DNA of 33,600 nucleotides from Chlorobiales bacterium (GTDB lineage: Bacteria > Bacteroidota > Chlorobiia > Chlorobiales > JACMJS01), in contig JACMJS010000116.1 of the NCBI GenBank assembly GCA_014380515.1, forward strand, positions 1 to 33,600, in the 5' to 3' direction. Shown here in pieces: positions 10,135 through 32,273 of this stretch. Each line of letters starts with the position of its first letter. Positions within the stretch are counted from its first letter, which is position 1. The notes beneath the pieces are model-generated. The model worked only from the letters and a program-made list of their open reading frames with translations. It was not told where the DNA came from and ran no database searches. The position numbers and the translations under genes are program-made.

Positions 10135-13100
10135 TCAAACTTTCGCGTACTTTTTTTTTGACTCGTGCTTGGGTTGCTTGGATTCGCGTCCGGCTTTACG
10201 CTTCTCGCGCCATGTTTTGTAGGTCTCCGAGATTTCCTTGTTCTCCGGCTTGCTCAAAAAACCTTTCTTGAACTTCGGATCGCCGAAGTTTTTGCTTGTT
10301 TCCAGCAAGGCTTTGCGGGCGAGGTTCAAGTACATCTCGGCTTTCTTTTCGTCCTTACGGTGAATGGATTTGAAGATGCGAAAGTAAAACGCCTGCATAT
10401 CGAACTTCGTCGTTAGTTTTACCAGCAACTTTTCCAAACGCGGCATCATCGCCATTGCGTCATCGGTGTTCTGGAGGCAAATCATTTTGCGAACGAGAAC
10501 GCCGATGAGAAAATAAAAATCCGCCGGATCGTCATCCGACATGTTATCAAGGTACGTTTGTACGTACGGCAACGCTTCCAGATACCGGTTCTGATCGATC
10601 AGGAAATCGCAGATACCGTTGTAGTAGTACGGCCACAAGGTTGGGTCGTTGGTCGCAGTAGCGATGGCGTGCGCCTTCTCGAGATACAGACGCGCTTCGT
10701 CGAACCGTTTGAGTTCAAGTAAGACGCCGAAGAACCTGAAGTAGACAAAGAAACGTGTTCGATTTTCTTCCGAAACTTTGTTCTCGTTGATGAGATTCGT
10801 ATACAAGGTCTCGGCGGATTTGAAGTCGCCGATGGTGATATAAATATCAGCAAGGTTATTAATCGCGCTGCTCAGTTGGCTACGGTCGCCGATGAGTTCG
10901 GCCAACTCGTACAGCTGCATGTAGACTTCGTAGGCTTCCTTATAGAGCGTGTTCTGAATGTAAATCTGCCCCAAGTTCGTCAGCACTTTCAAGCGAAACA
11001 GTTTATCGCCGCTCCGGTCGGTGATCGCCAAAACATCTTTGTAAACTGTTGCAGCCTGCTCTTGCTGCCCCGTCCATGAAAGTGCCACACCGACGCCGCG
11101 CAAGCCTTTGGCTTCACTAACCAAGTCGCCGATTTCCTTGGCGCGGTCATACATGCGTTGAAAAAAGATTTTCACATCGTCCCAATTCTGCGCGTAAAAA
11201 TTGGCGGAAGCGATGTTCTCGCACGCTTTGATTTCGATCTGTGGGTCGTTTAGTTCTTCGTTGAGTACGAGAACTTCGCGGCCAATGCCGTCGGCTTGTT
11301 CGAGGGCACTGACGGTAACAAGTTGCCAGCCTTTCACATTCTTCGCTTCGGCAATCATCCGCTTGTCGTTGCGGCGTTCGGCAATCGCAAGAAGTTCATC
11401 AACGACTGCTGTATGCTGCTCTTTCGGACCCTGCAAGAGCAATACCTTTTCGAAATTTTTCAGCGTCTCAAACCGCGTGGGTTCAAGTTCGGCTTTGTCT
11501 TTCGTCAATGCCAACAGGTCTTCGGAGACATCGCGGACGCTGCGGAAATCGAACAACTTGTTCGCCCGTCCGACGGCCAGCACGCCGTATTTCAACGCCG
11601 CCTGTTCTTGCTCCGCTTTGCGGTGATGATAGTAAAGATCAAAACTGTAATCGTAAAGGTCTTGTCCGAAGTTTTGCTCGATGGCTTCGGCGACGGCTTT
11701 GTGGAGCGTCTTGCGGTTGTCGCGCAACAGACTTGAATAAACCGCTTCCTGCATCGCAGTATGTTTGAAGCCGAGAATGTCCTGCTTCTCGTAAATAAAT
11801 CCTTTCTCCGACGCTTCTCTGACAATCACCGGAATTTCTCCGGCGGCGATCCTAGCGAAACTGCTGCCCGCTTCTTCGGTTACTTTTTGCTCGACGCTTA
11901 CGGCCAAGTTTCGAACGAATTCTTTGCCCATCACTGCGCCGCACGCCAGAAAATCTTTCGCCGGTTTCGCAAGCAAATCGTAGCGCGTAATCACGAGCGC
12001 ATTAATTGTGGCGGGCAACTGAAAATTTTCTACGCGTACGAACGCGAGCCGTCCGTCCTTTTCCGCAATGACGCCCTGCGCCTGCATCGATTCGATCAGT
12101 TCCTCGATATAAAACGGATTGCCTTCCGACTTCTTGAAAATTTCATCCAACACATCCGCCGGAAACGCCAGGTTCACAATCGCGCGAACGAGTTGCTCGG
12201 TTTCTTGCCGCGTGAACGGTTTCAAATCAACCCGCGAGTAATCGGCACCTTGTTGCACGCGAGCGGGCATCGTGTAATCGAGCCTATGCAGCCCGAAGAT
12301 GAGCACGGGATATTTGGTCGTGAGGTTTTCGGCAAGGAAAATAAGTGCCTCTTCCGAGACGTCATCGATCCAGTGCATATCCTCGAACTGAATGAACAAG
12401 ATTCGCTTCAGTTTTTTGTTCGAGTATTCCGCGAGCGCGGTGAGGAATTGCCGCAGCGCGACATTGACGTCGGTTTTGAACGCATTGAAATCCGTCGTTC
12501 GCAACCGTTCGTCATCATACTCGGCGCCGACCAAGTTGCCGATGATCGGTTTATAGATCGAGAGATCGACCGACGTCTGGCCGTAGAGCGATTCGTACCG
12601 CTCTTCAAAAATTTTCTTGATCGTTTCTTTATTGCGTTCGCCTTCAACTTTGAAGTATCGCTTCAGCATCGTGGAGAACATCGCATAAGGCGGCTGGGAG
12701 AACGAGAGCGTGTGGCCTTTCAGAAAAATACCGCTCGAAACTTTTTCACCGTTGCGCCGCAAGAACTCGTAAATGATGCGCGATTTGCCGTAGCCTGCCG
12801 GGCCGGTGATGGAAATAAATTTCATCTTGCCCTGCGACTGCTTGAAGCGCGAGTAGATTTGCTCGAGGTTCGAGAGTTCCTCTTCTCTACCAATGTAGAC
12901 GGCGTCTTTCCGCGAGGCTTTTTCGCGTTCCCACCGCTCTTCGCGTTTGGTGTTAATACCGGTAACTTCGTAGGCTTCGAACTTTTCCGCTTTGCCTTTG
13001 AGCGCGAGCAGCATCGGCTCGGAATAGGAATAGTTGCCGCCCGCCTGCAAGCGCACTTCGTTGCTGACGAGAAAACTATCGTGATGCGCATTGACTTCCA

Positions 13101-14202
13101 GCCGCGCGGCGGTATTGACCACATCGCCCATCGCGGTAACGTTGCCCTTCTGATCGGGGGCGATGGTTACTTCGCCGACGTTGATGCCCATCCGCACGCT
13201 CGCTTTCACATCATATTCTTTCAGCATCGCGTTCATCGCAGGTACGTTCTCGATGATTTCCATCGCCGAAAGAATCGCGCGTTCGCAATCGGCTTCCGAC
13301 GCCTCGACGCCGAAGAGCACCATCATCGAATTGCCCTGATATTTATCGATGTAAGCGTTGTATTTCTTGACCACATCCGTCGAAAGTTCAAACACCGCAT
13401 CGGCGACGGCGGCATAAAGATCGGCGGAGAGTTTATCGCCGTTGGAGTGCTCCGCGCCCAGTTCCATGAAGAACACGGTTACAACGCGGCGTTCGCCCTC
13501 TTTCAATTGCGCGGTGGCCGTGAGTTGATTGCGGAACTGGGTTTCGTTGAACGGGTGATACGGCTTGCGTACGTCGTCGTTCGCAAAGTCTTCAATCGCC
13601 GTGCCGGGCAATTCCAAACCGTCTTTGACTTTGACGGGAATCGTCTCGCCCAGCCGGAACTTGCCCTGCGGGAGTTTTTCCAAAACTTCTTTGCTCACAC
13701 ACAGTCCCAACCGCGGAGCGAAGGCTTGGAAACGTTCGGCGAAAATCGGGACGTCGCCCGTGGCGGTCAGGTTGCCTTTTTGATCGGGCGCGATGTCGAC
13801 ATGCCCGACATGAATGCCGATACGCGCGGCAATCTCAACGCCGCGTTTCGCCAGTTCTTCGTTGATGGGATTAAACTGATCCAGCACCTCTAAGGCCGCC
13901 ATGACGTTGGATTCGCAGTCGCCGTCTTCGGTGTCGCTGCCGAGGCCGAAGATCGCCGTCATCGCGTCGCCTTGGTATCGGTCGACATATGCGCCGTAGC
14001 GTTTGACGACATCGGTGAAACTCGTGAAGCACGCCGCGATGACGTTCTTGACGGCTTCGGGGTCGCCCAATTTTTCCGACATGGTGGTAAAGCCGACGAT
14101 ATCGAGCGAGAAGATGCTCACATAGCGGTCTTTCGCCTCGCGCAGTTTGACAGCCGAAGCGAGGGTGCGGCTGAACTTATCAAGGTCTACGGTTTGAGCC
14201 AT
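10135..14202 (-). CDS. tandem class III cyclase - ATPase - TPR protein, soluble-adenylyl-cyclase-like
   Basis: 1355 residues, predicted to make cAMP from ATP. Domain order: cyclase domain 1 (about 25-205), cyclase domain 2 (about 238-415), an AAA-type ATPase beginning YIGREEELSNLEQIY (Walker A GPAGYGKS 467-474; Walker B ILFIQFED at about 601-608), then a long helical, TPR-like region (about 850-1310). Domain 1 keeps both metal-binding Asp (D34 in FSLDIVGFT; D79 in YQGDAMT) but has Ile153 in place of the transition-state Asn. Domain 2 has lost both Asp (E247, N291) but keeps Lys287, Thr356, Asn363 and Arg367 (GDVVNTAARL). Together they could form one composite active site, as in mammalian C1/C2 and soluble adenylyl cyclase (ADCY10), which shares this domain order. 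The Lys/Thr pair suggests ATP as substrate. There is no membrane segment, and the gene stands alone with its own terminator. A run of nine A lies near the 3' end. Confidence 0.9.
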   Translation of the reverse strand: MAQTVDLDKFSRTLASAVKLREAKDRYVSIFSLDIVGFTTMSEKLGDPEAVKNVIAACFTSFTDVVKRYGAYVDRYQGDAMTAIFGLGSDTEDGDCESNVMAALEVLDQFNPINEELAKRGVEIAARIGIHVGHVDIAPDQKGNLTATGDVPIFAERFQAFAPRLGLCVSKEVLEKLPQGKFRLGETIPVKVKDGLELPGTAIEDFANDDVRKPYHPFNETQFRNQLTATAQLKEGERRVVTVFFMELGAEHSNGDKLSADLYAAVADAVFELSTDVVKKYNAYIDKYQGNSMMVLFGVEASEADCERAILSAMEIIENVPAMNAMLKEYDVKASVRMGINVGEVTIAPDQKGNVTAMGDVVNTAARLEVNAHHDSFLVSNEVRLQAGGNYSYSEPMLLALKGKAEKFEAYEVTGINTKREERWEREKASRKDAVYIGREEELSNLEQIYSRFKQSQGKMKFISITGPAGYGKSRIIYEFLRRNGEKVSSGIFLKGHTLSFSQPPYAMFSTMLKRYFKVEGERNKETIKKIFEERYESLYGQTSVDLSIYKPIIGNLVGAEYDDERLRTTDFNAFKTDVNVALRQFLTALAEYSNKKLKRILFIQFEDMHWIDDVSEEALIFLAENLTTKYPVLIFGLHRLDYTMPARVQQGADYSRVDLKPFTRQETEQLVRAIVNLAFPADVLDEIFKKSEGNPFYIEELIESMQAQGVIAEKDGRLAFVRVENFQLPATINALVITRYDLLAKPAKDFLACGAVMGKEFVRNLAVSVEQKVTEEAGSSFARIAAGEIPVIVREASEKGFIYEKQDILGFKHTAMQEAVYSSLLRDNRKTLHKAVAEAIEQNFGQDLYDYSFDLYYHHRKAEQEQAALKYGVLAVGRANKLFDFRSVRDVSEDLLALTKDKAELEPTRFETLKNFEKVLLLQGPKEQHTAVVDELLAIAERRNDKRMIAEAKNVKGWQLVTVSALEQADGIGREVLVLNEELNDPQIEIKACENIASANFYAQNWDDVKIFFQRMYDRAKEIGDLVSEAKGLRGVGVALSWTGQQEQAATVYKDVLAITDRSGDKLFRLKVLTNLGQIYIQNTLYKEAYEVYMQLYELAELIGDRSQLSSAINNLADIYITIGDFKSAETLYTNLINENKVSEENRTRFFVYFRFFGVLLELKRFDEARLYLEKAHAIATATNDPTLWPYYYNGICDFLIDQNRYLEALPYVQTYLDNMSDDDPADFYFLIGVLVRKMICLQNTDDAMAMMPRLEKLLVKLTTKFDMQAFYFRIFKSIHRKDEKKAEMYLNLARKALLETSKNFGDPKFKKGFLSKPENKEISETYKTWREKRKAGRESKQPKHESKKKYAKV

Positions 14203-19284: not shown

Positions 19285-19421
19285 AACCCCTGTCCCGCTT
19301 CGGCGGGACGTCCCCTTTACCAAAGGGGACATTGATAAATACGTTCGATTACTCGGTTGCATTTCAAATCCTTTGCATTTTAAACACTCTCCCCTGTTAT
19401 AAAGGGGAGCGCAGAGGGGTT
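19285..19421. repeat. AACCCCTCTG-ended palindromic element beside mcr (copy 1)
   Basis: 137 bases. The ends are inverted (AACCCCTG... / ...CAGAGGGGTT). It contains three hairpins: GTCCCGC-TTCG-GCGGGAC (19292-19309), GTCCCCTTT-ACC-AAAGGGGAC (19310-19330) and CTCCCCT...AGGGGAG (about 19388-19409). The first 37 bases on the minus strand differ at only one position from the element after moxR. Its terminal AA completes the TAA stop of mcr. Confidence 0.8.
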
Positions 19422-22400
19422 ACACGGTAATGGCATTGCCACGATAGATGCGCGAGCGGTAGCGCGAATCGTCGGGCGAAGGCAGCGGCGCCGAGGTCAG
19501 CAAGCACGCGATCACAAAGCGGTCGAGTTCCTCCGCAATTTCTTCCGGCGTCTGCGGCTTTTCGGATTTGGCGCGCCGTGTAAGATCGACTTGGTTCACC
19601 GCCGAGTGATGCACGCACCGCTCGTTCTCAACGCCGAGCGTAGCCGTCAAACTGTGCAGCGCAGTCTTGATAAAATTGGCGAGCGCGAATTCTTCGGCGG
19701 TCGATTGCTGCGACGTCTTCGGTGTAACCAGCACAAGTTGCAATTCGCCCAAGAGCGAACATTTCCGCGCGATTCGAAAATGATACGTCAGTTGATTTTC
19801 AACCAAGTCTTCGAAATCTTTTTCGTTGAACACGTTTTCCCAACTGCCGTTTTTCGTTGCCACGATTTGCTTGATTACAATCGGCTCGAAGGGCATCGAG
19901 ATCACCGCTTCCGGCCTGCCGAAATTTTTTACCGCTTCATCAATCGCTTCTTCAAGTTGCATTCCAATCGCTTTGACATGCAACCGGGCGGCCTTGACAT
20001 ACTCGCCGAACTTGCGCTGCAGTTGCTCGGCGGCGTAAGTGCTTTTCGTCAGCACCACGATTTGCAACACTCTGTACTCACCGATGTAAGCCGATACAAG
20101 CGCCGATATTTCATCGATCAAGTAATCGCCGAAGATGAAAATCGTTTTGCCTTCGAAGGCCGCGAGCCGTTCGGGTTTCGGCTTGCCGAACAGTTCGCCT
20201 TCCGGCACCGTGCGGTCGAAGCGCAAGCCGCCCGACGGATGAAAGGTCTCGCCGGAAATGTTGTCCGTCGCCAAGTAATGCACCGTCGAAAGCGCGACGT
20301 CCGATTCCGTCGGCATTCGCTTCAGGTAGAGCATCGAGAGAATTCCGTCGTTGATTTTTTTGGCTTCGCGCCGCAACTGATCGTAGGTAAAAAACGGTTC
20401 GGGCGGCAGCGGTAGGTTTTCGAGAAAAGATTCCGCGATGCCTGCGCCTTCAAGGTAGCAGCCCGTCCGCAGGCGGAGAATTAGTTTTTCGGCGATGCTC
20501 CGATCCATCAGGTGCGTGTAAGAATGGCTGAGGCTGTCCGCCGTTTTGTGAATGTGATGGGCGAGATTGGTGATGCGCTGATGGACTGTCGCCGCATTTA
20601 AAATTTCATCGATGCTGTTGTGCTGCATCGCAGCGAGAATGTCCGAAACCCGCGCGCCTTCGTCCATCGCTTTGATGGCGGAAGCGTACAGATCATTGAG
20701 CCGCTTCGTCGCCAGAATCAATCTGCCGCGGCGGTCGAACAAGCCCGGACGCTCCGCGGTGCCCTGCAAGCGAATGCCGTCGACGGGACCCGGCGCGATG
20801 GCGTTGATCAAAATTTCCGGTCCTAAAAACTTGGCGAAGGATTCGGCCATCGCGCGTTGCCCCGCCTTGCTGACGGCGTAATCGGCGCGGTTCGGATACG
20901 GCACGGCCACGTATTTTTCGCCGCCGAAATAGGAACTGATGTTGAGAATATGTCCGAAGCCTTGCTTCTTCATTGAGGGCAACACTTTTCGCATCAACGA
21001 AAAATTTGAAATCATGTTCGATTGCAATGTGTGCCGCCAATCCTTCACGCTCATATCAACGACCATCTGTTCGGCGCCCGAGATGCCCGCGTTGTTGATC
21101 AGGTAATCGATGCGCCCGAAGTTTTTCAAACTGAACTCGGTCAGTTTGCCGAGCGACGATTCATCGGCGACATCGATGCCGTCTAAAATCACGACCCGCT
21201 CTTCGGGACGCGAATATCCGATGCGCCGCAAGTCAATCAGAATCTGGTTTCGCTTTTCCTCCAATTCCGATTTGCGCCGCGCCGAAAGTACGACCCGTGC
21301 TCCCGCCGCCGCCAGCATCCGTCCGATTTCCCCGCCGATGCCTTGCGAACCGCCGGTGATGACGGCGACTTTGCCCAAGTGCATTCCATAGAGCGAATCG
21401 ATCAGGCCGGTCTTGGCGGGCTGCTCCAGATGCGCGGGCAGATACACGTTGATCGCCTCTAATTGTTTCGAAGTGTTGAGCACTTCCAAAACAAATCCGC
21501 TGGCGAGATCGAAATTATTTTCATCGCGGTTGGAATACCGGAGCAGTTGATGGGCGACGAGACCGAACTTGCGTTCGCCGTTGCGCTGCGCCGTTTCCGA
21601 TTCATCGCGCCAGATTCGAATCAGCTCTTCATTGGCCGAGCGCAAAATATCGTGATAGACCGACAAGCCGTAGGCGGGTGCGGAAACGAAAACCACGCGC
21701 GGGGTTTCGCGGAGTTTATGTTCCGTCGCCGCAAAAAATTTCGAGAGCGCGGAAGCGATGGAGATTGTGCCGGTGATTTCCTGATCTAAAAATTTCGTCG
21801 CGAGGTCGTCGCTGGTATCGAGCACGTAGGCATTCTGAAAATTTTTCTCGCAGCGCGGCAAGATCAGCACGTTCTCAACCGGTTGCGGCTCGCTGGCAAG
21901 CGTCGCAAAGAAAGATGCTTTCGAGACTTCATCGGCGGCGGAAAAATGACGGATGTCCAAGTGCGGATAATTTTCTTTGGCGCGCTCATAAAACACCGGA
22001 TGTTGAAAAACGAGAATTACACTCGACTTCGTTTCGATGAATCGGTTTGCAAAGGCAATGGCGTCCGAAATCTGATCGCCCGCGATGATGAGCGTGCGTT
22101 TGTCCGTGCCGTCGGAGATGCGGAGGCGCGGGCGGCTGGTCAGCGTCGTGCGGCTCTCGGCGTCGATCTGCATGCCGTTCGTAACCGCGAAGCCGTGCCC
22201 CGCGAAGGCTTTCGAGTCGTCGCTCGCCAAAAACAAAATCGTCCCGACGACATCTTCCGGCTTCGGAAATTGCTTGACGGCAACAGCGTCGCTATCGATC
22301 CCGGCTTCACCGCCGGGTTCATCGCGGCGGTTTAAAATCATGGTGTCAAAAAAATGTTGGGCGGTTGCACCGGCGGGTTGCGACTTCAATTTATCCATCG

Positions 22401-23115
22401 CGCCGAAAACGTTTCGAATCCGCTCGCTGTCGATGGGACCCGGAAAAACGGTGTTGAGCCGGATGGCTTTTTTCGATGTGCCCAGTTCGCGTGCCAGATG
22501 CAGCGAGAGACTGTTGAGCGCGGACTTCGGTACGCTGTAAGCGGTTCTGCCGAAATACGGCGTGCGTGAAAAAATCGTCGAGACGTTGATGATGCTGCCG
22601 CCGTGCTTCATCATGCCGAAGGCCGCGCGCGTCATCAGCCATGAAATGCCGAGCAGGTTTTGAACCGCATCCGAAACCGTTTCGGTATCGGCGACGCCTT
22701 GCGCACGCAACGCTTCCAACTGCTCCGCGGCGAAAGGCAGATTCGGCAAGATTTGTTTCGGCCCGACGCTGCCCGCGTTGTTGACGAGCACATCCAACTC
22801 ACCGAATTCTTTTTGTAAATCAGCGACGGCAAGATGCACGTCTTCGGGCTTCGACCCATCGAAGGCGCGGGTGTGAAGTGCAGCGGTCAGGTGCGACAGG
22901 CCGTTGGAAAGCAGCGATGATTTAAAGGTTTCGAGTTTCTCTTTGTTGCGTCCGGTGATGATGCAAGTTGCACCTTCGGCGAGAAACCGGCGTGTGAGGT
23001 GCGCGCCGATGTTGCCCGCGCCGCCGGTGATCAAGCAGCGTTTGCCCGCCAGCCGTCCGCCGCCAGCCGCTTCGGGCGTTTCAGGTTGAACCGATGTATT
23101 TTTTTTGCTCGCCAT
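19420..23115 (-). CDS. mcr: bifunctional malonyl-CoA reductase (3-hydroxypropionate pathway)
   Basis: 1231 residues, against about 1220 in Chloroflexus aurantiacus, and colinear with my recollection of that protein. It converts malonyl-CoA to 3-hydroxypropionate with two NADPH. In the family the C-terminal half makes malonate semialdehyde and the N-terminal half reduces it. N-half: TGGAGNIG (30-37), NNAG (112-115), NVSTIFS, Y193xxxK197, FPGPIDSERIR. C-half: TGGSQGIGG (587-595), NNAG (674-677), ILNISSYFGGEK, PYPNRADYAVSKAGQRAM with Y746 and K750, INAIAPGPVDG. Further Mcr-like blocks are ISGETFHPSGGLRFDRT, FALANFIKTALH, NQVDLTRRAK and the end RIYRGNAITV. The cofactor and Tyr/Lys residues of both halves are intact. 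The ATG at 23115 has a GGAGAG ribosome binding site seven bases upstream. Repeats flank both sides. No other gene of the pathway is in the window. Confidence 0.95.
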   Translation of the reverse strand: MASKKNTSVQPETPEAAGGGRLAGKRCLITGGAGNIGAHLTRRFLAEGATCIITGRNKEKLETFKSSLLSNGLSHLTAALHTRAFDGSKPEDVHLAVADLQKEFGELDVLVNNAGSVGPKQILPNLPFAAEQLEALRAQGVADTETVSDAVQNLLGISWLMTRAAFGMMKHGGSIINVSTIFSRTPYFGRTAYSVPKSALNSLSLHLARELGTSKKAIRLNTVFPGPIDSERIRNVFGAMDKLKSQPAGATAQHFFDTMILNRRDEPGGEAGIDSDAVAVKQFPKPEDVVGTILFLASDDSKAFAGHGFAVTNGMQIDAESRTTLTSRPRLRISDGTDKRTLIIAGDQISDAIAFANRFIETKSSVILVFQHPVFYERAKENYPHLDIRHFSAADEVSKASFFATLASEPQPVENVLILPRCEKNFQNAYVLDTSDDLATKFLDQEITGTISIASALSKFFAATEHKLRETPRVVFVSAPAYGLSVYHDILRSANEELIRIWRDESETAQRNGERKFGLVAHQLLRYSNRDENNFDLASGFVLEVLNTSKQLEAINVYLPAHLEQPAKTGLIDSLYGMHLGKVAVITGGSQGIGGEIGRMLAAAGARVVLSARRKSELEEKRNQILIDLRRIGYSRPEERVVILDGIDVADESSLGKLTEFSLKNFGRIDYLINNAGISGAEQMVVDMSVKDWRHTLQSNMISNFSLMRKVLPSMKKQGFGHILNISSYFGGEKYVAVPYPNRADYAVSKAGQRAMAESFAKFLGPEILINAIAPGPVDGIRLQGTAERPGLFDRRGRLILATKRLNDLYASAIKAMDEGARVSDILAAMQHNSIDEILNAATVHQRITNLAHHIHKTADSLSHSYTHLMDRSIAEKLILRLRTGCYLEGAGIAESFLENLPLPPEPFFTYDQLRREAKKINDGILSMLYLKRMPTESDVALSTVHYLATDNISGETFHPSGGLRFDRTVPEGELFGKPKPERLAAFEGKTIFIFGDYLIDEISALVSAYIGEYRVLQIVVLTKSTYAAEQLQRKFGEYVKAARLHVKAIGMQLEEAIDEAVKNFGRPEAVISMPFEPIVIKQIVATKNGSWENVFNEKDFEDLVENQLTYHFRIARKCSLLGELQLVLVTPKTSQQSTAEEFALANFIKTALHSLTATLGVENERCVHHSAVNQVDLTRRAKSEKPQTPEEIAEELDRFVIACLLTSAPLPSPDDSRYRSRIYRGNAITV

Positions 23116-26678: not shown

Positions 26679-27755
26679 ATGCGCGAAGTTGCTTTCCTCA
26701 AACAAAACGCCCAGAAGTGGAAGTCCTTCGAGGCGATGCTTCAAAGCAAAAACGCATCCTCGCCCGATGCGCTCGCCGCTCTGTTTATCGAACTGACCGA
26801 CGATTTGAGTTACGCGCGGACGCACTATCCGAAAACCAAAACGACGGCGTATCTCAATACGCTTACCGCCCGCGTTCATCAAGCGATTTACCGCAGCAAG
26901 AAAGAACCGCGCGGTCGGCTGGCACGGTTTTATCTCTTCGAACTGCCGCGCCTGTTTCGCAACTCGCACAAAGAACTGCTGTATTCATTCATCATTTTCG
27001 CGCTGGCGGTTTTGATCGGCGTCGTTTCGGCGCTCAATGATTCGACGTTCGTGCGATTGATTCTCGGCGATAGTTACGTGAACATGACGCAGAACAACAT
27101 TGCCAAAGGCGATCCGCTCGGCGTTTACAAAGGCGGCAGCGAGCTGGAGATGTTCATCGCCATCACGTTCAATAACATTCGCGTTTCATTTTTCGCCTTC
27201 GCGGCGGGACTTTGCTTTTCCGTCGGCACGGCGATGTTGCTCTTCTACAACGGCGTGATGCTGGGCGCGTTTCAAACGTTTTTTTATCAAAAGAAACTGC
27301 TCGTCACGTCGTTGCTCACGATTTGGATTCACGGGACTTTGGAAATTTCCGCCATCGTCGTCGCGGGCGCGGCGGGCCTCGCCATGGGCAACAGCATTCT
27401 CTTTCCCGAAACGTTTTCGCGCTCGGAATCTTTCCGGCGCGGGGCGACGCAAGGCGTTAAAATCATTATCGGACTGTTGCCGCTTTTTATCACCGCCGGA
27501 TTTTTAGAGAGTTTCATCACGCGCCACTACGCCGAATTGCCGCTCGCCGTCAGCCTTTTCATTATTTTCGGATCGCTCGCGTTCATCGCTTTTTATTTCA
27601 TCATCTATCCGATTCAACTCGAAACACAAGCCAGCCGCGCATCTGCATCTCCGGCGGCGGAAACCTTGCCGCGAGCAAAGCCGAAACCGGCGGTATCGCT
27701 GCAAGCCAGCGAAGTTCCGGCAACCGCCAGTGCGGCGTTGGGCATCAATCCTTAG
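26679..27755 (+). CDS. SpoIIM-like (stage II sporulation protein M) membrane protein
   Basis: 358 residues. A soluble helical N-terminus (about 1-95; FIELTDDLSYARTHYP, LNTLTARVHQAIY) is followed by five to six membrane helices: LLYSFIIFALAVLIGVVSAL, MFIAITFNNIRVSFFAFAAGLCFSVGTAMLLFYNGVMLGAF, LLTIWIHGTLEISAIVVAGAAGLAMG and IIIGLLPLFITAGFLESFI. The NNIRVSFFAFAAG, NGVMLG and HGTLEISAIVVAGAAG motifs are typical of the SpoIIM/DUF95 family. Non-sporulating bacteria keep it in this RDD/DUF4129 cluster, so no sporulation role is implied. The C-terminal 45 residues are Ala/Pro-rich and probably disordered. It starts the plus-strand cluster that runs to the window end. Confidence 0.9.
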   Translation: MREVAFLKQNAQKWKSFEAMLQSKNASSPDALAALFIELTDDLSYARTHYPKTKTTAYLNTLTARVHQAIYRSKKEPRGRLARFYLFELPRLFRNSHKELLYSFIIFALAVLIGVVSALNDSTFVRLILGDSYVNMTQNNIAKGDPLGVYKGGSELEMFIAITFNNIRVSFFAFAAGLCFSVGTAMLLFYNGVMLGAFQTFFYQKKLLVTSLLTIWIHGTLEISAIVVAGAAGLAMGNSILFPETFSRSESFRRGATQGVKIIIGLLPLFITAGFLESFITRHYAELPLAVSLFIIFGSLAFIAFYFIIYPIQLETQASRASASPAAETLPRAKPKPAVSLQASEVPATASAALGINP

Positions 27756-27817
27756 AATCAGCATTTGAAATATTCGACGATATTTGAAATTTCCGGTTCA
27801 CTCAATCAACACACATC

Positions 27818-28747
27818 ATGGACGCATCCGAATTGCAATCCGCCTCGCGCACCGAAAGCCCGCGCATCGAGTTCCGCAAAACGCGCAACCTCGGCGACAT
27901 TATCAACATCACGCTGCTGTTCATGCGGCAGAATTTTAAACCGCTCGCCACGGCGATTGTTTATATCGCCGGGCCGTTCGCTTTGTTGACGGGCGTCGCC
28001 GCAGGTATCTATCAAGCCAACGTCCGCGATCTCGCCATCGGCGCGGGCGGCGGAAGTGCCGACCCCTTTGCTGCGTTCTCTCAACTTTTCAGCGTCGAGT
28101 ATTTTCTCATTATTCTTTTTTCCGTCCTTGAATCCACCGCACTTATCGCCATCGTCTATACCTACATCAATCTCTACATCGACCGACCGGATACCGAGCC
28201 GCAGGTGCAAGACATCTGGCAGGGCGTGCAGCAACATTTTCTAAAAGTCTTTTCCGCGTCGCTGCTCGCGGGCTTGCTGCTCATTCTCGGCATTGTGCTG
28301 CTGGTCATTCCGGGCATTTACATCAGTGTGCCGATTTCGTTTATCTACGTCATCATGCTGCGGGAAAACCGCAGCGTCGGCGAGGCGATCTCACGCGGCT
28401 TTGCGCTGGTGAGAGGCCACTGGTGGCAATCGCTCGGCGTGCTGGTCGTGGTCGGATTGCTCGGTTATATCGTCTCGTTCGTGTTCAGTCTTCCGGCGGG
28501 CGTGATCGGATTTGTCTCGGCGTTCAACAGCGTCCGCGAAGGCAGCGGCACCGGCGCAACGCTTTTTGAGCGTGCCCTCTATGTGCTGACGTCGATTATC
28601 TCGTCGTTCGGCACACTCATTTTTTACGGCATCGTTTATATCGCCACCGCATTTCAGTATTTCAATCTGGCCGAACGCAAAGAAGCGACCGGCCTGATGA
28701 ACAAACTTCAGGGCATTGATACGCCGCCCGCACCCAACACGTTTTGA
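27818..28747 (+). CDS. polytopic membrane protein of the SpoIIM/DUF4129 cluster
   Basis: 309 residues. A polar N-terminus (about 1-35) precedes about six hydrophobic segments: PLATAIVYIAGPFALLTGVAAG, YFLIILFSVLESTALIAIVYTYINLYI, VFSASLLAGLLLILGIVLLVIPGIYISVPISFIYVIML, SLGVLVVVGLLGYIVSFVFSL and LTSIISSFGTLIFYGIVYIATAFQYF. The IVLLVIPGIYISV and AISRGFALVRGHWWQSLGV patterns resemble the membrane domain of glycerophosphodiester phosphodiesterase-type proteins, but no phosphodiesterase domain is present. Function is unknown. The DUF4129 gene begins four bases after its stop. Confidence 0.75.
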   Translation: MDASELQSASRTESPRIEFRKTRNLGDIINITLLFMRQNFKPLATAIVYIAGPFALLTGVAAGIYQANVRDLAIGAGGGSADPFAAFSQLFSVEYFLIILFSVLESTALIAIVYTYINLYIDRPDTEPQVQDIWQGVQQHFLKVFSASLLAGLLLILGIVLLVIPGIYISVPISFIYVIMLRENRSVGEAISRGFALVRGHWWQSLGVLVVVGLLGYIVSFVFSLPAGVIGFVSAFNSVREGSGTGATLFERALYVLTSIISSFGTLIFYGIVYIATAFQYFNLAERKEATGLMNKLQGIDTPPAPNTF

Positions 28748-28751
28748 GAAC

Positions 28752-29675
28752 ATGCCTGTTTTTTCCTTTGAGATTTCCGCGATCCCCCTTCTCAAAAAAG
28801 GTTGGGTAGCGTTGATTGTCGCCGGGGTGCTGTGGCTTCCGCCGCAACCGGCGCCAGCCGCCGTGCCCGATTCCGCGTTCAAACCCGGCATCGCCGCGGA
28901 CTCCGCACAGGCATCTAAATCCGATTCCCTCGGCAGCCACGGTGAGCATGATTTGTTTTATTCCAACCCGGTCTACAATCGCTTCGATACCACAACGCTC
29001 ATTTTGCGGGCGGGCGACCCGCAGGTTCGAAAAGATTCCGCGGCCATCGCGCTGCGCCGTCCCGATGCGGCCAAACTTGAAGCGTTCCTCAACGACGGGA
29101 CCTTTCATTACGACCGTCAGCCGCCGCCGACCGCGACCTTCTGGCAACTCGTCCGCTACTGGCTATGGCAAACGTTTTTCGATCTCAGCCAGAATCAATA
29201 CTGGAGTCCGTTTTGGCGCATCGTCAGTTACCTCATCTTCGGTGCCGCCGCCGTGTTCGTCATTCTCAAACTCACGCAAACCGATTTGAAAGGGTTGTTC
29301 TACGGCGGCAAAGGCGGCTCGCTCGATTTCCAAACCATCGTGGAAGATATTCACGGCCTCGATCTTGACGCCCTCATTGACGAAGCGATCCAAAACAAAC
29401 AGTACCGCCGGGCGGTGCGTTATTGTTACCTGCGCGCGTTGAAATTGCTGAGCAATCAAAATCTGATTGTGTGGCGCGCCGATAAAACCAACCGCGACTA
29501 CATTTCGGAACTGCGCCAAAGCGACTTGCGCCCCGCGCTCGCCGATTTGACAAACCAGTTCGAGCATGTCTGGTACGGCGATTTCCCGATTGATGAACCG
29601 CGATTCCTGCGGGTGCGGGCACAGTTTGATGCCTTCACCAAAACCCTCGCGTCCGATCACCTTTCGCCCCGATGA
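28752..29675 (+). CDS. DUF4129 membrane protein
   Basis: 307 residues from the ATG at 28752, chosen because it lies four bases after the previous stop; the track start overlaps the upstream gene. A hydrophobic N-terminal segment (IPLLKKGWVALIVAGVLWLP) may be a signal or anchor. A polar region (about 35-130) follows, then one membrane helix (IVSYLIFGAAAVFVILKL). The C-terminal half is the DUF4129 domain: ALIDEAIQNKQYRRAVRYCYLRALKLLSNQNLIVWRADKTNRDYISEL...LTNQFEHVWYGDFPI. The AVRYCYLRAL and F...WYG motifs are typical. In related clusters the family is linked to transglutaminase-like or DUF58/MoxR proteins. It ends four bases before the DUF4350 gene. Confidence 0.87.
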   Translation: MPVFSFEISAIPLLKKGWVALIVAGVLWLPPQPAPAAVPDSAFKPGIAADSAQASKSDSLGSHGEHDLFYSNPVYNRFDTTTLILRAGDPQVRKDSAAIALRRPDAAKLEAFLNDGTFHYDRQPPPTATFWQLVRYWLWQTFFDLSQNQYWSPFWRIVSYLIFGAAAVFVILKLTQTDLKGLFYGGKGGSLDFQTIVEDIHGLDLDALIDEAIQNKQYRRAVRYCYLRALKLLSNQNLIVWRADKTNRDYISELRQSDLRPALADLTNQFEHVWYGDFPIDEPRFLRVRAQFDAFTKTLASDHLSPR

Positions 29676-29679
29676 ACCG

Positions 29680-31089
29680 ATGCTGAAAGGCCAACTCAAA
29701 TATATTCTTGTGCTTTTGCTGGCGATGGTGTTGCTGGTGGTCGTACAACTTTCCACGCCGCCGCCGCTGGATTGGTCGCCGTCGTTTTCGCGCGAAGATA
29801 AAATTCCCTACGGCAATTTTATTCTGTTCGCCTTACTTCCCGACGTCTTTCCCCGCACGGCGGTCAGCATTGTGCAAGATCCGATCTACACCGTGCTTAC
29901 CGGCGACACGATTGATGCCGAAGCCCGTCTGAACCGCAACTACGCGAGCGGTTCAGACGACGCTGACGACGCTTACGATGATTACCGCGATGCTGAACCG
30001 GATTCCGCAGCGACGTTTGATTCCGCTTCAACTCGCAGTTTGTTCCGCAGTAAATCAGCGATTACGCAACGCTCGACGACTTACATGTTTATCGGCGGCA
30101 ATTACGTCGGGAGTTTTCTGCCCGATAAACTTGATGTGGAATATCTCTTGCAGTTTGTCAGCGAAGGCAACACGGTCTTCATCGCCGCCCAGCGGTTTGA
30201 CGCGTCGTTTCTCGATACGCTGAGGCTGCGCGTCGGCAATTATTATGAAGTGGCCAATCTCGGCGTGAAGACGGATAATGCGGAAACGGGCGGAGGACTT
30301 TCACTCGAAAGCAAATTGGATTCGCTCGGCATTAATTTTATCAATCCTGCGCTGCGTGCGAAGAGCGATTACCGCACGCGGCGCACCGACGGCTCGCACG
30401 CCTATTTCACGCGGTTCGATTCGCTCAAAGCCGAAGCCCTCGGCATGAACAGCAAAGGCTATGTGAACTACTTGCGGCTGCGGTTCGGCAAAGGTTTTTT
30501 TTATCTCAACACCGTGCCCTACGCCTTCACAAATTATAACTTGATGATGGCACCGAACAGCGAATACGTCTTCAAAGCCTTGTCCTACTTGCCGGTGCAG
30601 CCCGTCTTGTGGGACGAATTTTATAAAGTCGGGCGGCGCGAATCACGAACGCCGCTGCGATATATTCTCTCGAACGAAGCCTTGCGGTGGGCATATTATC
30701 TGACGATTGCAAGTGCGTTGCTGTTCATCACGTTTGAAAGCAAGCGGCGACAGCGCATCATTCCCGTCGTTGCGCCGCCGCCGAATATGGCGGTGGAGTT
30801 CGTCGAAACCGTCGGGCGGTTGTATTATCAGAACGGCGATCACAAAGATTTGGCGACCAAGAAAATCACATTCTTTCTCGATGACTTACGTTCAAGTTAC
30901 ATGGTACGCACCACCGCTTTTGATGCAGAGTTTTATGAAACGCTGGCGCGCAAATCGGGCATCGCTGAAAGCGATCTCAAAACACTTTTCACGTTTATCA
31001 CGCAACAGGGTATGCGATCATCCGTCTCCGAAATTGATTTGAAACAACTGAGCGCGATGATCGATAATTTTTACAAAAAGTCGAATTGA
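29680..31089 (+). CDS. DUF4350 membrane-anchored protein
   Basis: 469 residues from the ATG at 29680 (MLKGQLKYILVLLLAMVLLVVVQL), four bases after the DUF4129 stop; the track start would overlap that gene. It has an N-terminal membrane helix. A DUF4350 region (about 30-290) follows: DKIPYGNFILFALLPDVFP and, after an acidic Asp-rich insertion (DDADDAYDDYRDAE), YMFIGGNYVGSFLPDKLDVEYLLQFVSEGNTVFIAAQRF. Then come GKGFFYLNTVPYAFTNYNLM and a second membrane helix (WAYYLTIASALLFITF). The cytoplasmic tail (about 370-469) has FVETVGRLYYQNGDHKDLATKK. It forms a unit with the MoxR and DUF58 genes, but a repeat element separates it from moxR. Confidence 0.85.
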   Translation: MLKGQLKYILVLLLAMVLLVVVQLSTPPPLDWSPSFSREDKIPYGNFILFALLPDVFPRTAVSIVQDPIYTVLTGDTIDAEARLNRNYASGSDDADDAYDDYRDAEPDSAATFDSASTRSLFRSKSAITQRSTTYMFIGGNYVGSFLPDKLDVEYLLQFVSEGNTVFIAAQRFDASFLDTLRLRVGNYYEVANLGVKTDNAETGGGLSLESKLDSLGINFINPALRAKSDYRTRRTDGSHAYFTRFDSLKAEALGMNSKGYVNYLRLRFGKGFFYLNTVPYAFTNYNLMMAPNSEYVFKALSYLPVQPVLWDEFYKVGRRESRTPLRYILSNEALRWAYYLTIASALLFITFESKRRQRIIPVVAPPPNMAVEFVETVGRLYYQNGDHKDLATKKITFFLDDLRSSYMVRTTAFDAEFYETLARKSGIAESDLKTLFTFITQQGMRSSVSEIDLKQLSAMIDNFYKKSN

Positions 31090-31090
31090 T

Positions 31091-31197
31091 AATCCCCCCA
31101 GCCCCCTTTAACAAGGGGGAGTTTGAATAGCGCGAGCATCGAATGGCACGCACATCGAACAATCGTTCCCCCCTTGTCAAAGGGGGTTAGGGGGATT
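31091..31197. repeat. AATCCCCC-ended palindromic element between DUF4350 and moxR
   Basis: 107 bases with inverted ends AATCCCCCCAGCCCCCTTT / AAAGGGGGTTAGGGGGATT. Inside each end is a hairpin (CCCCCTTT-AACA-AGGGGG and CCCCCTTGTCAAAGGGGG). The architecture is like the AACCCCTCTG elements but the sequence differs, so it is a separate subfamily. Confidence 0.75.
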
Positions 31198-31226
31198 AAA
31201 AATCTTATCACATAATCAACGTACCA

Positions 31227-32273
31227 ATGGACGCATCTACGCCGCAACCCGCCGAAACGCAACCTTCATCACCTCAAATAGAATCGCAACCGCAATCGCC
31301 AACAACGACGTTTGAAACGCGCACCGACCTTGCAGCCTTGCGGGACGCGGTGTTGCGGGTGCGGCAGGAGCTGCGCAAGATCGTCGTCGGGCAGGAGAAG
31401 ATGGCGGATTTGCTCATCGCCGCCGTGCTCTCGAACGGACACGTTTTGATTGAAGGCGTGCCGGGCGTCGCCAAAACGCTCACGGCCAAACTCATCGCCC
31501 GCACGCTCTCGATTGATTTTTCGCGTATTCAGTTCACGCCCGATCTCATGCCCAGCGACGTGCTCGGCACGGCGGTTTTCAATCCGAAGACGGCGGAGTT
31601 TTTGTTCAACAAAGGTCCCATTTTTTCGAACCTCGTGCTCATCGATGAAATCAACCGCGCTCCGGCCAAAACGCAGTCATCGCTGTTTGAGGTGATGGAA
31701 GAACGTCAAATCACGATTGACGGCACGACCTATCCGATGGCGCCGCCGTTTCTCGTCATCGCTACGCAAAACCCGATTGAGCAAGAAGGCACGTACCGTT
31801 TGCCCGAAGCGCAATTGGATCGTTTCCTTTTCAAAATCGAAGTCGGCTATCCGACGCCGGAAGAAGAAGCCGTGATCCTTGCCGAGTTTCACGGGCGCAA
31901 AAGTTTGAACCGGTTGGAATCAGTTGAAGCGGTTTTGTCGGCGTCGCAAATTGCGGCGTACCAATCGCAAGTGCGCGGGCTGCACATCGATGCGAACCTG
32001 ATTGGGTACATCGCGCAAATCGTTTCGAGCACGCGCAAGCACGGCGATATTTTTCTGGGCGCATCGCCCCGTGCGTCGCTCGCCATTATGACCGCATCGA
32101 AGGCACTCGCGGCGATGCGCGGACGTGATTTCGTTACGCCCGAAGATATTCAAGAGGCGGCCTATCCCGTGCTTCGACACCGCATCGCGCTCACGCCCGA
32201 AAAGGAAATGGAAGGCGCGAGCACCGAAGAAGTCATCGCCCAGTTGATTAAAAAAATCGATGTGCCGCGGTAA
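31227..32273 (+). CDS. MoxR-family AAA+ ATPase
   Basis: 348 residues. A chaperone-like ATPase that helps mature or assemble partner proteins, usually the DUF58/von Willebrand proteins encoded beside it. After a Pro/Gln-rich disordered start (1-30) comes the AAA+ core: KIVVGQEKMADLL, Walker A GVPGVAKT (77-84), Walker B NLVLIDEINRA (about 135-145), PIEQEGTYRLPEAQLDRFLF (sensor and Arg-finger region), and the lid FLGASPRASLAIMTASKALAAMRGRDFVTPEDIQ. All catalytic motifs are intact. Its stop codon TAA runs directly into a repeat element, and the DUF58 gene follows 158 bases later. Confidence 0.95.
   Translation: MDASTPQPAETQPSSPQIESQPQSPTTTFETRTDLAALRDAVLRVRQELRKIVVGQEKMADLLIAAVLSNGHVLIEGVPGVAKTLTAKLIARTLSIDFSRIQFTPDLMPSDVLGTAVFNPKTAEFLFNKGPIFSNLVLIDEINRAPAKTQSSLFEVMEERQITIDGTTYPMAPPFLVIATQNPIEQEGTYRLPEAQLDRFLFKIEVGYPTPEEEAVILAEFHGRKSLNRLESVEAVLSASQIAAYQSQVRGLHIDANLIGYIAQIVSSTRKHGDIFLGASPRASLAIMTASKALAAMRGRDFVTPEDIQEAAYPVLRHRIALTPEKEMEGASTEEVIAQLIKKIDVPR

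Follow-up and report, generated by a model that had tools for sequence, protein, structure and literature searches.

Bacterial as well as eukaryotic soluble adenylyl cyclases (sAC) were the subject of a 2004 paper by Kobayashi, Buck and Levin (cited in PMC6660944). Chloroflexus is reported to possess enzymes with the sAC-type tandem layout. In human sAC (ADCY10) and in the sAC-type bacterial tandems, two cyclase domains are followed by a P-loop ATPase and a helical tail, and one predicted live site takes its metal ligands from the first domain and its Lys/Thr/Asn/Arg set from the second. Six bacterial proteins with the true sAC layout were found in this study, three of them in the same phylum as the bacterium considered here and the other three on plasmids of Leptospira, Ensifer and Microvirga. 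One of the plasmid-borne genes (L021, 2414–6607, plus strand; plasmid lbp2 of Leptospira borgpetersenii) adjoins a sphingomyelin phosphodiesterase gene. The layout itself is thus already known in bacteria, and what may be new at the locus described below is the independent origin of the tandem.

The window analysed, i.e., the whole stretch of 33,600 nucleotides, is an entire contig of a Chlorobiales genome (3.57 Mb, 420 contigs). It contains a 1355-codon ORF, and Pfam analysis bore out the order of two cyclase domains, ATPase and TPR tail that had been read from the letters. Two stretches of the product match the class III nucleotide cyclase family PF00211 (78.3 bits for the whole protein; cut-off, 21.9), and in a search of the bacterium's own genome each domain alone exceeded the same cut-off (48.3 bits for domain 1 and 33.2 bits for domain 2). 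The following AAA_16/STAND-like P-loop ATPase scores 60.8 bits against a cut-off of 32.6, so that both assignments lie above the curated thresholds. The coordinates of the predicted features are given in Table 1. On the opposite strand, a 710-aa open frame (11761–13893, plus) lies antisense to the cyclase gene; it is probably a codon-bias shadow and no gene.

Table 1. Positions in the window of the tandem cyclase gene and of the features predicted in its product.
Feature	Position	Strand	Remarks
Whole ORF, tandem class III cyclase–AAA_16 ATPase–TPR protein, 1355 aa	10135..14202	minus	ATG start, no internal stop
Cyclase domain 1, residues 21–208	13579..14142	minus	D34, G37, F38, T39 and D79 kept; catalytic Asn lost (I153); Lys replaced by Arg (R75)
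Inter-cyclase linker, residues 209–234 (26 residues)	13501..13578	minus	Low pLDDT in both AlphaFold models
Cyclase domain 2, residues 235–420	12943..13500	minus	Metal ligands lost (E247, N291); K287, T356, N363 and R367 kept
D34, metal ligand (human sAC D47)	14101..14103	minus	Alignment
D79, metal ligand (human sAC D99)	13966..13968	minus	Alignment
K287, adenine Lys (human sAC K334)	13342..13344	minus	Alignment
T356, adenine Thr (human sAC T405)	13135..13137	minus	Alignment
N363-x3-R367, NXXXR catalytic motif (human sAC N412/R416)	13102..13116	minus	Alignment
IAPDQKGN hairpin, domain 1, residues 137–144	13771..13794	minus	In place of the conserved GNxGS turn
IAPDQKGN hairpin, domain 2, residues 347–354	13141..13164	minus	
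AAA_16/STAND-like ATPase core, residues 437–635	12298..12894	minus	Walker A GPAGYGKS, 467–474; Walker B-like ILFIQFEDMHW from 601
TPR tail, about residues 930–1250	10453..11415	minus	Pfam TPR_12 and others, about 1030–1215

All of the active-site residues quoted in the first-pass annotation (D34, D79, I153, E247, N291, K287, T356, N363 and R367) were verified in the ORF translation, and their sites were assigned from the roles described for the human enzyme (PMC12867704, PMC12250328, PMC4506562). As a consensus reference, 30 single-domain cyclases were used, in which both metal Asp residues, the Lys, the Asn and the Arg are each conserved in 29 sequences, and the Thr in 23. Because this consensus is near-invariant, each of the losses observed is unusual. 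One composite site (site A: D34, G37, F38, T39 and D79 of domain 1 with K287, T356, N363 and R367 of domain 2) keeps the consensus at all nine positions. Its mirror (site B) keeps it at two of nine, both metal Asp residues and the catalytic Asn being gone; the replaced positions are E247, A250, E251, H252 and N291 in domain 2, and R75 and I153 in domain 1. The metal Asp residues are thus found only in the first domain and the Lys/Thr/Asn/Arg set in the second, as in sAC, and K287 and T356, at the base-binding positions, form the Lys/Thr adenine pair that CyaC and sAC also have, as had been proposed. In addition, R127 aligns with the PPi-binding K144 of human sAC.

The proposal of complementary losses, with one predicted live and one predicted dead site, therefore finds support in the alignment. 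The probability that the three losses originally named fall in one site by chance is 0.18 (six positions per site), and it decreases to 0.06 when R75 is added as a fourth loss. With nine positions per site, including those of the phosphate loop (G37, F38 and T39), all seven losses lie in one site with p = 0.002, a value that overstates the significance, as adjacent losses are not independent. By itself, the residue pattern is suggestive of a single-site enzyme, short of overwhelming.

Both cyclase domains lack the GNxGS turn, the glycines of which are 97% conserved among relatives. This near-universal turn is replaced in both by the hairpin IAPDQKGN, which is three residues shorter and is common and unique to the two domains. 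The Gly of the GGT[IV]DK motif is also replaced by Ala in both (A71 and A283). Loss of the turn from both domains could impair catalysis. The hairpin segments are nearly identical at the protein level, with randomised codons (9 of 19 the same; 8.6 expected from codon usage). As the codons agree at chance level, the likeness of the segments points to an old duplication followed by selection and to no recent conversion. Gene conversion as the source of the domain likeness is therefore not supported by the codons.

Phylogenetic analysis of 46 domains, with human ADCY10 represented in both sAC clades, placed all of the sAC C1 domains in one clade (support, 100/98) and all of the sAC C2 domains in another (98/91). 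The two domains of the Chlorobiales protein are sisters (95/95) and lie outside both clades; neither the grouping of its first domain with sAC C1 nor that of its second with sAC C2 was recovered, and sister support was 97/94 once the columns of the shared hairpin were removed. The two domains are also reciprocal best BLAST partners among the gathered sequences (38% identity, 108 bits; next best, 85 bits). A joint sAC origin, with both domains forced into the sAC clades, was rejected with the full alignment (AU test, p = 0.0115) and was borderline without the hairpin columns (p = 0.052). When domain 1 was constrained with sAC C1, or domain 2 with sAC C2, the p-values were 0.009 and 0.045 with the full alignment, and 0.16 and 0.19, neither rejected, with the hairpin columns out.

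Profile searches gave a similar result. A profile built from the two domains did not retrieve ADCY10 at E ≤ 0.01, its best matches being CyaB, Cya2 and CyaC; in the positive control, a profile from four bacterial sAC tandems retrieved both domains of human ADCY10 (E-value, 3 × 10−59). A 4-residue insertion in the beta2–beta3 loop, present in seven of seven sAC C2 domains and forming a DKG loop in the human and three bacterial members, is absent from the protein. Membership of the protein in the sAC family, and hence the kinship with mammalian sAC that had been supposed, is not supported by these comparisons. Of the resemblance to ADCY10, the architecture and the division of residues stood, but shared ancestry did not, nor did the bicarbonate residue (E156 in place of R176).

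The ATPase of the protein is nearest to ATPases that stand behind single cyclase domains (136–137 bits), followed by those of the sAC tandems (117 bits), although all of the matches ranked in this way are weak, at about 25% identity. ATPases of six single-cyclase ATPase–TPR proteins are among the nearest; such proteins are common on rhizobial plasmids and are present in the same phylum. Another gene collected (L019, 2201–6481, minus strand) encodes a kinase-like N-terminus, one cyclase domain, an ATPase and a tail; its cyclase domain is without both metal Asp residues and the NXXXR motif, and looks like a pseudo-cyclase. The open frame of a further cyclase match (L014, L025; G133:C38) is interrupted by a TAA codon, and the gene may be broken.

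No orthologs were detected by scanning genome and viral contigs with protein-derived patterns, or genome contigs with a two-domain pattern, scans that reach close relatives only. None of the 98 genomes searched from the order, or of the 394 from the phylum, holds a second copy, and no sAC relatives were found in the viral contigs. The claim of an independent origin would thus rest on a single sequence with no ortholog found, and conservation of the split site would accordingly be without support from relatives. Hundreds of IMG/VR contigs (L047–L126), which may be host sequence within the viral set, encode class III cyclase domains, many of them behind membrane segments; one of these contigs (L057) encodes a cyclase–ATPase–tail protein.

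Both cyclase domains fold in two AlphaFold runs (mean pLDDT, 82.8 and 73.1). The model of domain 1 best matches CyaC (2bw7; Z, 24.6; rmsd, 1.9 Å over 184 residues), and that of domain 2 best matches CyaB (3r5g; Z, 24.3; rmsd, 2.4 Å over 185 residues). The alignment rows matched domain 2 in one run and domain 1 in the other, and carried no inter-domain signal. In both models the placement of the domains differs from the sAC arrangement (two-domain superposition, rmsd 16–19 Å; pTM, 0.53–0.55), relative placement being poorly determined with rows that cover one domain each.

According to one alternative, judged rather unlikely, the tandem has lost cAMP synthesis and controls the ATPase/TPR part as a module that binds nucleotide or acts as a scaffold. 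The changes of the turn and of the GGT[IV]DK Gly in both domains, the weak Pfam match of domain 2 and the presence of many other cyclase genes in the genome are all consistent with such a pseudoenzyme, and there are degenerate class III domains with bound ATP (PDB 6yii, from its title). However, the retention of site A in full beside the loss of seven positions from site B is unexpected under decay without selection. Models lacking an sAC-like pairing within the chain, poorly determined as their domain placement is, would also agree with a functional site assembled from separate chains, one providing domain 1 and the other domain 2, in a domain-swapped or ATPase-driven oligomer. STAND ATPases commonly oligomerise. 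Such an arrangement is considered improbable, as human sAC pairs its domains within one chain (PMC4506562) and the linker between the domains plausibly permits the same here; sequence cannot separate the two modes of pairing.

The remaining alternative, a fast-diverged true member of the sAC family that gained its hairpin by exchange between its two domains, would account for the same domain order and C1/C2 division of labour, for the long branches in the tree and for the borderline test obtained without the hairpin columns. It is regarded as highly unlikely, since the sister support persists without the hairpin, the codons show no recent conversion, the C2 insertion is missing, and the two-domain profile fails to reach ADCY10. 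On balance, the protein is probably a single-site adenylyl cyclase of the cytosol that has converged on the sAC family and does not descend from it. By the same comparisons, its tandem of a live and a dead site before a STAND-type ATPase and TPR tail would likely represent a second, independent invention of the sAC blueprint, with a new hairpin selected in both halves.

For this convergent single-site cyclase, the following course may be proposed. A class III cyclase domain, probably already followed by an ATPase–TPR tail in the manner of the common bacterial proteins with one such domain, would have been duplicated in place, and the copies would then have decayed in a complementary way. The two metal Asp residues and the phosphate loop would come from domain 1, and the NXXXR motif and the adenine-binding Lys/Thr from domain 2; dimer-like packing of the pair would create a single ATP site alongside a dead one. 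Depending on a bound partner or the nucleotide state, the cyclase may be gated by the STAND-type ATPase and TPR tail, and the cAMP produced could reach some of the cell's own cNMP-binding proteins, which number roughly ten.

Besides this gene, PF00211 matches ten places in the genome, and ten cNMP-binding domains score above the cut-off, which makes cAMP signalling in the same cell plausible. The annotated neighbours of the gene are mostly housekeeping genes (deformylase, formyltransferase, SSB and CNNM), with no cAMP target among them. A Pycsar cyclase (PycC) was rejected, as PycC matches were weak, no cNMP-activated effector adjoins the gene, and its neighbours are housekeeping or unrelated. 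In the window, no match to Rfam elements was found, and promoter and terminator scans gave no more than the shuffle level. The window further contains a second tandem fusion, a 1231-aa ORF (19420–23115, minus) that matches short-chain dehydrogenase (adh_short) at two distinct places, and a cluster of SpoIIM, DUF4129, DUF4350 and MoxR-type AAA genes (26679–32273, plus).

K95 and R176 are the bicarbonate-binding residues of human sAC (PMC12867704). This pair is absent from the protein, which has R75 and E156 at the aligned positions; conservation of the bicarbonate site was considered and rejected, as both alignment and numbering place E156, and not R157, at human R176. A human-type bicarbonate switch is therefore unlikely, judging from the residues. 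The pair is not strictly defining, as it is also missing from most animal sACs outside the mammals, of which the two that were tested respond to pH instead (PMC12867704).

If the protein is active, symmetric bacterial domains before the same kind of ATPase–TPR tail have given rise to an asymmetric cyclase with a single site on more than one occasion. Such repeated origin would suggest that the layout is functionally favoured, e.g., because the pocket of a dead site becomes available to a regulator. An active enzyme would also provide a natural case in which to study the origin of sAC-like enzymes and whether a dead site can act as a sensor without the bicarbonate Arg.

Among known systems, the TOMM system kinase/cyclase fusion TIGR03903 resembles the protein in the cyclase–ATPase stretch (179.5 bits, far under the family cut-off of 705.75), but the protein lacks the kinase domain, and no TOMM genes were seen nearby. 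The six single-cyclase ATPase–TPR proteins mentioned above share a cyclase, an AAA-type ATPase and a helical tail with it, but differ in having one cyclase domain with a complete set of residues. The class III domains of Spirulina CyaC and Pseudomonas CyaB are the best structural match for each domain (Z about 24) and have the same Lys/Thr adenine pair; CyaC, however, is a symmetric homodimer with two sites, whereas the two sites of the Chlorobiales protein are unequal and lie on one chain. With ADCY10 and the bacterial sAC-type tandems, it has in common the order of domains and the predicted single live site; it is set apart from them by its probably separate duplication, the lack of the C2 insertion, another hairpin, E156 for R176, and no profile match to ADCY10.
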